Of a stretch of DNA of 64,000 nt, positions 7,742 to 55,212 are shown piece by piece; the first letter of the stretch is position 1; each line of letters starts with the position of its first letter. The stretch spans positions 62,001 to 126,000 of the forward strand of contig NZ_CALPDB010000006.1 of the NCBI RefSeq assembly GCF_943193155.1. Direction: 5' to 3'. The stretch is from Veillonella intestinalis. Its GTDB lineage: Bacteria; Bacillota; Negativicutes; Veillonellales; Veillonellaceae. The notes beneath the pieces are model-generated. The model did no database searches. It was not told the DNA's origin and saw nothing but the letters and a program-made list of their open reading frames with translations. Made by a program: the position numbers and the translations under genes.

Positions 7742-8374
7742 TTAATCATTCCATATCTTGCGAGTGCGACTTAACATACCACGCAAACGTTTTATGCCTT
7801 GACGATGTAAACGATGAATATAGCTATTACTAGTAGATAATTCACCGGCTACCGAAGCAATGGAACGATCAGCTAAATACACCTGTTCCATTACATGGCG
7901 CTCATTGCCAGGTAAACGCTCTAAAGCCTCCACTACCACCTGTTGAAAGGCTTTTGATTCCACAGCCATTTCTATGGAAGGCCCTTCATCAGGTAATTGT
8001 TCCCACCAATATTCGTCATCTTCATTAGCAACACTTAATACAGTGCCACCCTTGCCCTCTTTTCGTAAGTAATCAAGGATACGCCCCCGTACACGGTGAA
8101 CCGCATACAATGAGAAAGCAACACCTTTCGTATAATCAAAACGTTCCACCGCTTCAATTAAGCCTACCGTACCTTCTTGCACACAGTCCATCACATCATC
8201 CACTACTTGACGATGTGCCATAGCTTCGCGGAATACCAAGGGCTGGTAATGTTCAATGAGGGCCGTTCGTGCCGTTTCATCATCCCCATTGCGATACGCT
8301 TGCCATAAAGCTCGTTCTTCTTCTGGGGCTAATAATTTAATTTTTTCTAATTCAGCTAAATATGACGATAGCAT
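7742..8374 (-). CDS. Sigma-70-family RNA polymerase sigma factor
   Basis: A 210-residue alternative sigma factor. Residues about 1-60 resemble region 1.2 (YLAELEKIKLLAPEEERALW), about 63-105 are region 2 with the core-binding and -10-melting segment (CVQEGTVGLIEAVERFDYTK, then FSLYAVHRVRGRILDYLRKEG), and about 150-205 are a region 4 helix-turn-helix (ALERLPGNERHVMEQVYLAD). A short acidic linker replaces region 3. The start ATG at 8374 follows AAAGGAGG. It begins 19 bases after the tamB stop, so it is probably made from the tamB transcript, and it ends before a terminator. It could govern envelope genes; target promoters are unknown. Confidence 0.85.
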   Translation of the reverse strand: MLSSYLAELEKIKLLAPEEERALWQAYRNGDDETARTALIEHYQPLVFREAMAHRQVVDDVMDCVQEGTVGLIEAVERFDYTKGVAFSLYAVHRVRGRILDYLRKEGKGGTVLSVANEDDEYWWEQLPDEGPSIEMAVESKAFQQVVVEALERLPGNERHVMEQVYLADRSIASVAGELSTSNSYIHRLHRQGIKRLRGMLSRTRKIWND

Positions 8375-53241: not shown

Positions 53242-53763
53242 ATGGATGTTTTATTTAATATAGGTCAAGCATTTCTAATGGGCCTAATTGCCTTCGCCAT
53301 TACACGCTGGGGCTATGTCAACAATATACAAATATTATATCTCCACGGTAGACTTAATCGACTACAATTCTTATTAGGTCTTATAGCCTTAACATTTGCA
53401 GTAAGTCTATTTAATAATTTAATCAATACTATGATGGCCAATGTAGTTATATTAATTTCCTATTGGGGGGTTCGCATATTAAGCTTTTTGGGTCATGCTG
53501 TAATTTTGTCCCTCTATTATGTACTCTATGCTCGGCGCTTACAAGATTTCTCACTTCATGGTATTATCGGGATTTGTTGGTGTATCTTTATCGCCTTTAC
53601 CTATCCCTATTTACCTATAAAATCAACTAGTGCCGCGTTTATGGTCATTATTTGGCTTGTTAATTTTGTATTACTCGTTATCCCTGGTAGTGGTAAACCA
53701 AATCGCTATGGAATGCCTGCGATTTGGCCACAAAAACGTGTACGAATGCAAAAAGAGCGATAG
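53242..53763 (+). CDS. DUF805-like membrane protein
   Basis: A 173-residue protein with four or five TM helices. It carries the DUF805 pattern: HGRLNRLQFLLGLIAL early, an arginine-pair motif YARRLQDFSLHGIIG, and PGSGKPNRYGMP near the end. The family is widespread and without a known biochemical role. ATG 53242 follows AAAGGAAG. A long terminator begins inside the last codons. Confidence 0.8.
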   Translation: MDVLFNIGQAFLMGLIAFAITRWGYVNNIQILYLHGRLNRLQFLLGLIALTFAVSLFNNLINTMMANVVILISYWGVRILSFLGHAVILSLYYVLYARRLQDFSLHGIIGICWCIFIAFTYPYLPIKSTSAAFMVIIWLVNFVLLVIPGSGKPNRYGMPAIWPQKRVRMQKER

Positions 53764-53833
53764 TCTTATGTAGTAATCATTATTGCTAAACAATATAGAT
53801 TACGAGTGAGACTATCGCTCTTTCTTTTTACCT
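53752..53833. terminator. Bidirectional terminator between DUF805 and YvrJ-like genes
   Basis: Stem AAAGAGCGATAGTCT / AGACTATCGCTCTTT (53752-53766 and 53809-53823) with an inner GTAATC/GATTAC pairing. T runs follow on both strands (TTTCTTTTTA on plus, TTTTTGC on minus), so it can end both convergent genes. Confidence 0.88.
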
Positions 53834-53977
53834 TCGTTCGTAAGTTTTTAATGTAAACACTAATTCATTAATAGACGCACTTAAAGAATCCATTTTATGT
53901 TCCAGCCGAATCAGTAGATAAGCGGCTACAACCATTGGAAATCCATAATTCGCCGTAGCTGTTAAGATGGCTTCCAT
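53828..53977 (-). CDS. YvrJ-like small membrane protein, 49 aa
   Basis: A micro-gene of 49 codons: MEAILTATANYGFPMVVAAY, then LLIRLEHKMDSLSASINELV and a short basic end (YERR). The layout, a short N-terminal part with GFP, one TM helix (about 12-24), a charged LEHKMD junction and an amphipathic helix, matches YvrJ-family small proteins of Firmicutes, whose role is unknown. ATG 53977 lies seven bases after GGAGG, but that site is inside a perfect 15-bp stem (53981-54020). It follows the unknown membrane protein gene and shares a convergent terminator with DUF805. Confidence 0.82.
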   Translation of the reverse strand: MEAILTATANYGFPMVVAAYLLIRLEHKMDSLSASINELVFTLKTYERR

Positions 53978-54020
53978 AAAAACACCTCCTCACTGTTATA
54001 CATTCCAGTGAGGAGGTGTT
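53978..54020 (-). terminator. Hairpin acting as terminator and ribosome-site mask
   Basis: Perfect 15-bp inverted repeat AACACCTCCTCACTG / CAGTGAGGAGGTGTT around a 10-base loop, starting eight bases after the stop at 54028 and followed on the minus strand by five T. The descending arm contains the GGAGG site for the YvrJ-like gene that begins immediately after. Confidence 0.85.
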
Positions 54021-54027
54021 GTAAAGA

Positions 54028-55212
54028 TTACCTAATAAGCAACATCCATTCTAATAAAGTACAGACGATATAGGCAATAATAAATTTAATTTTTTGTTTA
54101 CGATCACGATCTTCATCAGCAATTTTTAAGCGTTGTGCCAAAAAGCGTTTATCTCGAATTTGAAGTAATAAGTCACGAATACTAGCTTGACTTTTTTCAT
54201 CGACCTCTTTGCCATTCTTTTTCAAAGCTTGTTGTTGAATTAGAATGCGGCGCTGTAGTTTACGCATCTGTATCTTAATATTATTATGGACAAACACACT
54301 TTGCCATTTTTTTCGCGAATCAAAGTACATATAAATATACCTTGGAATGTTCATCACAATAAAACTAATACACAGAATACCTAAGGAAATTAAGAAGTAT
54401 GTTGAAAAAGAAAATTCAATCGTTTCTGTTGGTAAATAGTGATGTAAGATGACAAAACTTATCCAAACCCCGATAGGCAATAGTAAAGCTGCTGCCATAT
54501 CAATGGAACGAACCCAACTCGTTTTGACGGGTACCTCTGGCACATTGTAAGTTTCTACTTCATCACGAAAGGCATAATATTCTAACCGTAAAACAGACTG
54601 CTCTGTGCGCGCATTAATTAAAATGGCTGGTCCTTTTGCTTCAGGGCAACGATTAGGCCAAGAAATTAAGCGACGAATCGGACTATCTGGGGCTAAATCA
54701 AAACGAATAATCCCCTTCTTTTCAAAACGAACTGTAGAACTATCTTCGCCAATTTCAAACGGATTAAAGAATGTACCTAAAAGGCTTAAACTCCAATTGC
54801 CCATTAAATGAACAATCGTATTTAAAATAAAGCCGCCCATATCGACATCGGACATATTAAGTTTCACAGAAAAGCTTGATGCATAATCATCAAACCACAA
54901 ATCTTCAATGGTAAATTCTATGGTAATTACGTTACCTAAGGTAGTAATAATCCCTAGATACACTTTATTATTTGCTTCAAATTCAAATGTAACAGAATAA
55001 AACAACCAATGATTGCGCAATTGTGCTTTGAGGATACGATTGATCGCATCTTCTTCTACATTAATAATGCGATGATCATATAAATCGACCTCACTCGGTG
55101 TCGACGGCGTTGACTCAACTGGCACGGGCGTAGCAGTTTCAACTGGCTGCTTGCGTGATCTAGCTGTCATCGATTCTGCTATCTCCAATAATCGCGTGAC
55201 TAGATTATTCAT
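54028..55212 (-). CDS. Membrane protein of unknown function
   Basis: A 394-residue protein I do not recognise. Residues 1-45 are a low-complexity Pro/Thr/Ser/Val segment; about 46-225 form a soluble, strand-rich domain (FYSVTFEFEANNKVYLGIIT, FILNTIVHLMGNWSLSLLGT) without a signal peptide; TM helices follow at about 238-258 and 270-290; a basic coiled-coil stretch (about 298-372) ends in a third TM (about 375-392). The soluble domain is probably cytoplasmic. It has its own extended -10 promoter and a terminator hairpin, with the YvrJ-like gene beyond. Confidence 0.7.
   Translation of the reverse strand: MNNLVTRLLEIAESMTARSRKQPVETATPVPVESTPSTPSEVDLYDHRIINVEEDAINRILKAQLRNHWLFYSVTFEFEANNKVYLGIITTLGNVITIEFTIEDLWFDDYASSFSVKLNMSDVDMGGFILNTIVHLMGNWSLSLLGTFFNPFEIGEDSSTVRFEKKGIIRFDLAPDSPIRRLISWPNRCPEAKGPAILINARTEQSVLRLEYYAFRDEVETYNVPEVPVKTSWVRSIDMAAALLLPIGVWISFVILHHYLPTETIEFSFSTYFLISLGILCISFIVMNIPRYIYMYFDSRKKWQSVFVHNNIKIQMRKLQRRILIQQQALKKNGKEVDEKSQASIRDLLLQIRDKRFLAQRLKIADEDRDRKQKIKFIIAYIVCTLLEWMLLIR

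Follow-up and report, generated by a model that had tools for sequence, protein, structure and literature searches.

The window, the whole 64-kb stretch of Veillonella intestinalis DNA that was analyzed (its genome is designated G000), carries on its minus strand a 49-codon open reading frame (ORF) preceded by a hairpin and, farther upstream, a 394-aa ORF (Table 1). The small ORF scored 59.1 bits against PF12841, above the curated cut-off of 29.5, which bears out an earlier note that had called it YvrJ-like; by its inferred topology, the product is probably a membrane protein. Over 45 codons in six genomes, 4 to 24 synonymous codon differences were found versus 0 to 3 nonsynonymous ones; YvrJ is a real gene under strong purifying selection. 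From the stop codon of the 394-aa ORF (TAA, 54028-54030), for which no Pfam family was found at E 0.1, the sequence runs through 7 nt (54021-54027), the left arm, the loop, the right arm, and TTT to the YvrJ start codon (ATG, 53977-53975). The hairpin is one of nine inverted repeats in the window (at least 13 nt, 12-base exact seed, arms within 60 nt), and a 261-nt stretch around it gave a folding z of -3.94; the plus strand was folded, and the stem forms there too. All 15 of its 15 positions pair, and the only Shine-Dalgarno sequence (SD) of YvrJ lies inside it with a pairing probability of 0.9998 (1.00 in the long RNA), versus a mean of 0.49 for the 51 SD-bearing genes of the window, one of which reaches at least 0.98; the YvrJ SD is more completely paired than any. 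The masking of the SD by a perfect 15-bp stem, as first described, is thereby confirmed. A second perfect 15-bp inverted repeat (53752-53766 and 53809-53823, with a 42-nt loop) lies where YvrJ and a DUF805 gene converge, between their stops, and is probably a terminator for one or both of them.

Table 1. Features of the YvrJ locus, with positions in the window
Feature	Coordinates	Strand	Basis or remark
YvrJ-family gene, 49 aa	53828..53977	-	ORF; PF12841, E = 3.1e-16; synonymous-biased divergence
Right (descending) arm CAGTGAGGAGGTGTT	53981..53995	-	Expected site of transcription start, about 53990-53994
SD AGGAGGTG, within right arm	53983..53990	-	Sequence; pairing probability
Loop GAATGTATAA, 10 nt	53996..54005	-	Sequence
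Proposed -10 element GAATGTA for an alternative sigma factor	53999..54005	-	GNANGTA invariant; fixed spacing to -35
Left (ascending) arm AACACCTCCTCACTG	54006..54020	-	Inside proposed -35/-10 spacer; 15/15 pairs in G000, G006, and G001
Proposed -35 element TTTAC(A)	54021..54025	-	Match to TTKWC-N15-GAATRTA at 53999-54025
394-aa ORF, membrane protein by eye	54028..55212	-	Possible origin of read-through transcripts

A comparison of the hairpin across Veillonella, as the earlier note had proposed, came out in favor of the pairing: the SD is paired in all six YvrJ-bearing genomes among the seven of the genus that were searched (P 0.88 to 1.00). Between the final codon of the 394-aa gene and the YvrJ ATG, counting the stop, the gap is 53 nt in G000, 54 nt in G006, and 80 nt in G001, and it is 67, 246, and 695 nt in G003, G004, and G005, values corrected for one unaligned last residue. 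Whatever this gap, the hairpin sits at the YvrJ ATG in all six genomes, and GTGTTTTT ahead of the ATG is kept in every one of them; judged by sequence comparison, the hairpin belongs to YvrJ, not to the upstream 394-aa gene. In two long-gap relatives (L003 and L004), the frames between the 394-aa gene and the hairpin are, by eye, presumably those of an antitoxin-like and a Doc toxin-like protein. The left arm of G001 differs from that of G000 at six positions, yet all 15 pairs are retained through G-U pairing; under random substitution, such retention has a chance of 0.0001 to 0.024, depending on the transition bias. In G003 to G005, the same SD is paired with a re-sited left arm, which overlaps or precedes the -35 element; an inner helix accompanies it in G003 and G005, and G004 has a weaker one.

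The 394-aa gene is present in all 28 genomes of the family and all seven of the genus, versus 7 of 28 and 6 of 7 for YvrJ, and elsewhere in the class YvrJ is accompanied by DUF1659, DUF2922, and a sigma factor; the suggestion that YvrJ and the 394-aa protein form a membrane module could not be upheld. The seventh YvrJ of the family (G020), the only one in genus g4, lies divergently to the 394-aa gene, and its SD, of another sequence, is paired (P 0.98); this locus has no entry in the promoter-motif scan described below.

Across the class, PF12841 occurs in 170 of 380 genomes. Among the matches listed, we fetched 110 YvrJ loci beyond the family (30 plus 80), and most of these genes have no hairpin-type leader; in several genera of family f24, which we guess to be Selenomonadaceae, and in one f14 genome, a hairpin encloses the SD; its stem differs from that in the window, and its loop carries GNANGTA. 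This motif is invariant in 16 aligned leaders, chosen partly for it, and in their stems 26 cells have changes on both sides, versus 12.5 in shuffles (0 of 500 shuffles); the result is biased toward pairing by the choice of leaders partly for hairpin and motif. With a covariance model built from the 16 leaders, again chosen partly for the hairpin (MAFFT alignments with gaps in the stem were set aside), one strong site was found in the genome of the window, the next (E = 0.011) being the same palindrome on the other strand, and 89 of the 380 class genomes had a match. We inspected 20 lower-ranked matches, some picked for their nearness to YvrJ. Nine precede a gene of interest, namely DUF1659 in seven (L198 to L201, L203, L212, and L213, with YvrJ downstream in L198 to L200) and an amidase gene directly behind the element and upstream of YvrJ in two (Amidase_2, just below cut-off, in L196 and Amidase_3 in L197); the other 11 appear to be unrelated hairpins or genes. 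A phage origin was considered and rejected, as no relative was found by a single-protein scan of viral contigs or by tblastn of phage records. Plasmid records matched YvrJ in 44 cases; in the four that were inspected with a loose pattern, nothing was found before YvrJ or DUF1659, and there was one weak match, 79 nt before a sigma gene.

The loop in the window carries GAATGTA, and a TTKWC box lies exactly 15 nt before it, an arrangement that recurs across the class as a TT-rich box followed, at a distance of 15 or 16 nt, by GNANGTA. The window clade has TTTAC, TTGAC, or TTGTC as its box; in genus g4, the box before DUF1659 is in most cases TTGTC or TTTAC, and TTTAA prevails in a set of genomes that we take to be Sporomusa-type. 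The looser motif TTKNN-N15/16-GMANRTA precedes 55 of 169 YvrJ and DUF1659 genes, versus 1.4 expected in shuffles (27 of 30 and 15 of 30 DUF1659 upstream regions and 13 of 109 of YvrJ); in two of the 55 (L233 and L275), the start is 82 nt distant, and the match may be fortuitous. Excluded from the 169 were loci whose upstream DNA was identical or shorter than 115 nt and those without a recognized start or a hit to the protein pattern. The stricter TTKWC-N15-GAATRTA has 202 matches in the 28 family genomes, versus 101 for the reversed pattern, and 7 versus 5 in the genome of the window, which is no clear excess. Four of these seven lie inside ORFs of at least 100 aa, and the three outside precede YvrJ, a DUF2922-DUF1659 operon, and a permease-like ORF. 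The DUF2922-DUF1659 site, which played no part in defining the pattern and is also found in G001 and G003, lies 184 nt before the DUF2922 start, too far for it to form the loop of a hairpin that pairs the SD. The -35 element is variable, and a scan with the sigma-70 consensus did not list the proposed YvrJ promoter site. In the Sporomusa-type genomes, the motif overlaps codons of the sigma gene, and part of its conservation there may be coding; in L216, the sigma ORF ends earlier and the element persists, which argues against the coding explanation, as does L244 by its sequence. The same motif was also seen in five g4 genomes (L310 to L314; Pfam on one) before a HAD-like gene, a possible further member of the regulon, about 35 to 50 nt before the SD.

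In all six non-Veillonellaceae loci inspected (Pfam on two), the ORF immediately preceding DUF1659 encodes a sigma-70-family protein, in two frames in L236; in two Veillonellaceae loci inspected likewise (L258 and L270), there was no adjacent sigma ORF. Of the 28 genomes of the family, 27 contain a homologue, and in each of the six from genus g3 it is no more than about 400 nt away from DUF1659; in the genome of the window, the sigma gene is not adjacent to YvrJ. The best homologue of this strain (L327; G000:C1:290789-291322) has an in-frame stop near its start and looks damaged, and its homologue in the near relative G006 is open. With such a stop, the proposed YvrJ promoter may either be silent in this strain or depend on a different sigma factor. 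The window contains a 210-aa sigma-70-family gene (7742-8374, minus strand), a distant relative of the DUF1659-linked factor, with similar matches in the other genomes of the genus; it is an example of a factor that may act as a stand-in.

Taken together, these findings make it probable that the hairpin combines an alternative-sigma promoter with a translational lock. The sigma factor would recognize TTTAC(A)-N15-GAATGTA, a sequence that extends across left arm and loop, and transcription would start about 6 nt after GAATGTA, within the right arm. The native leader would then be about 15 nt long, with a free SD from which YvrJ is made; RNA reading through from the 394-aa gene, or from any insert before YvrJ, would contain both arms, fold, and shut the SD, and YvrJ synthesis would thereby be tied to a dedicated sigma factor. 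In keeping with such a scheme, the predicted pairing of the SD in the leader from the window, which is 1.00 in the long RNA, drops to 0.46 if the RNA starts 5 nt after the -10 element. A start inside the loop had already been among the options listed in the earlier note. The same note had set against its masking proposal a separate promoter whose leader lacks the upstream arm; the comparative data do point to one, and the masking itself stands. Our data cover the conserved pairing, a promoter-like motif of fixed spacing that recurs at partner genes, and the linkage to sigma genes; what we infer are the acting sigma factor, the start site, the repression, and its purpose, which would be that no small membrane protein is made at the wrong time; no start-site map for Veillonella was found in the literature searched.

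The hairpin was first taken to be mainly the terminator of the upstream gene, and an ordinary intrinsic terminator of the 394-aa gene, one arm of which happens to hold the YvrJ SD, has several features on its side: a GC-rich 15-bp stem 7 nt after the stop, five T's after GGTG at the hairpin end (two of them within the stem), the retention of GTGTTTTT throughout the clade, and runs of T after the stems of L071, L196, and L197. Against this stand the hairpins still found at YvrJ where 246 or 695 nt separate it from the upstream gene, the absence of a T run after the stem in 9 of 10 f24 YvrJ hairpins (the exception, L071, has TTTT), and the fixed spacing between the -35 element and the loop, which a terminator leaves unexplained. 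We therefore regard this reading as unlikely for the main role; the T runs in the three relatives make a terminator role possible, and the hairpin may have one on the side. Our terminator scan, with a loop limit of 8, did not list the hairpin, whose loop is longer.

Slightly less likely still is an RNA switch, in which a factor, a small RNA, or temperature opens the GNANGUA loop on the read-through mRNA and so frees the SD. The invariance of the loop motif in the aligned leaders and the covariation of the stems would fit such a switch; the DUF2922 site in G000 lies too far from its gene for a hairpin of this type, and the distance of the motif from the SD of the HAD-like genes also speaks against it. 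A fixed distance to TTKWC suits DNA rather than a loop ligand, the motif itself is paired in G003 and G005, and an Rfam search with the stretch in the window and 10 loci gave solely matches below the gathering scores.

SD hairpins were scored against 100 shuffles each (p of 0.05 or less, uncorrected). Of 12 YvrJ elements scored, 7 had a significant hairpin, and six of these 7 belong to the window clade; among DUF1659 elements, only 5 of 27 and 3 of 15 reached significance; the small number of DUF1659 elements with a significant lock indicates that lock and promoter are separable. Most DUF1659 elements thus consist of the motif without a significant SD stem, as would be expected if there were only a promoter and the inverted repeat were an operator or a by-product with no effect on translation. 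We consider this very unlikely for YvrJ, in view of the 7 of 12 elements that are significant versus shuffled heads and of a clade that retains the pairing although G-U pairs have arisen and the left arm has moved. Least likely of all is translational coupling, in which a ribosome finishing the 394-aa gene melts the base of the stem and YvrJ is then translated. A stem beginning 7 nt past the stop, as in G000, G006, and G003, would suit it; against it, the hairpin is kept where the gap is 80 nt (G001), 246 nt (G004), or 695 nt (G005).

Comparable arrangements are known. In the IS10 and IS50 transposase genes, an inverted repeat hides the SD solely on transcripts that enter from outside; the YvrJ hairpin resembles these in being an inverted repeat that would fold and hide the SD on incoming transcripts, and it differs in that the ORF list shows no transposase gene beside YvrJ. 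According to two papers on phage T4 (PMC2988022 and PMC3014915), genes e, soc, and I-TevI have the SD in a stable hairpin on long RNAs initiated upstream, and the adjacent upstream promoter of I-TevI is placed so that its RNA omits the 5' part of the hairpin; similar control is described there for segB and for mobE of phage Aeh1, and early translation of gene e could, by the same account, cause premature lysis (PMC2988022/PMC3014915). The YvrJ SD is likewise sequestered on long transcripts in silico; the recurring TTKWC-N15-GAATRTA across the left arm and loop may be a promoter of its own, which would give an RNA without the 5' arm. The YvrJ system differs in residing in bacterial chromosomes and in its putative promoter, which is of the alternative-sigma type and not a T4 late promoter.

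A link between yvrJ and an alternative sigma factor is also known from Bacillus subtilis, in which yvrJ is transcribed by SigO-RsoA, with a regulon of oxdC-yvrL, yvrJ, and yvrI-yvrHa (PMC8103513). The likeness would be that of a yvrJ under a dedicated alternative sigma factor, for which the genomic linkage seen here is that of sigma genes to DUF1659. SigO-RsoA is split over two proteins, whereas the Negativicutes homologues are single proteins of about 180 to 195 aa; the protein of L320 matches sigma-70 (TIGR02937) over residues 11 to 180 of its 183 aa and is thus single, not split. In the homologues, region 4 is above the Pfam cut-off, with region 2 just below it in one of the three scanned. 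Within the YvrJ family, the gene in the window stands apart in adjoining an unrelated gene rather than lying behind DUF1659-DUF2922, and its leader is absent from most of the YvrJ genes fetched.

More tentatively, we suggest that the Negativicutes have an undescribed sigma regulon comprising DUF1659, DUF2922, YvrJ, and sometimes cell-wall amidases, in which the hairpin promoter at several YvrJ genes serves as a lock like that of T4 lysozyme on a holin/amidase-like membrane module; we hold this wider proposal to be possible but doubtful. The amidase neighbors make a danger resembling premature lysis thinkable for YvrJ, on which we can speculate only. To our knowledge, neither YvrJ nor DUF1659 has a known function, Pfam gives none for DUF2922, and no paper in the library that we searched combines two of the terms DUF2922, YvrJ family protein, and sigma-70 family RNA polymerase. 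The shared motif, the linked sigma factor, and the read-through lock would help to tell when YvrJ, DUF1659, and DUF2922 are made. If our reading is true, bacterial chromosomes make use of a trick of phage T4 late genes, and YvrJ would be made solely from its own short message and not from the read-through of a neighbor, which would suggest that the protein is harmful or useless at the wrong time.
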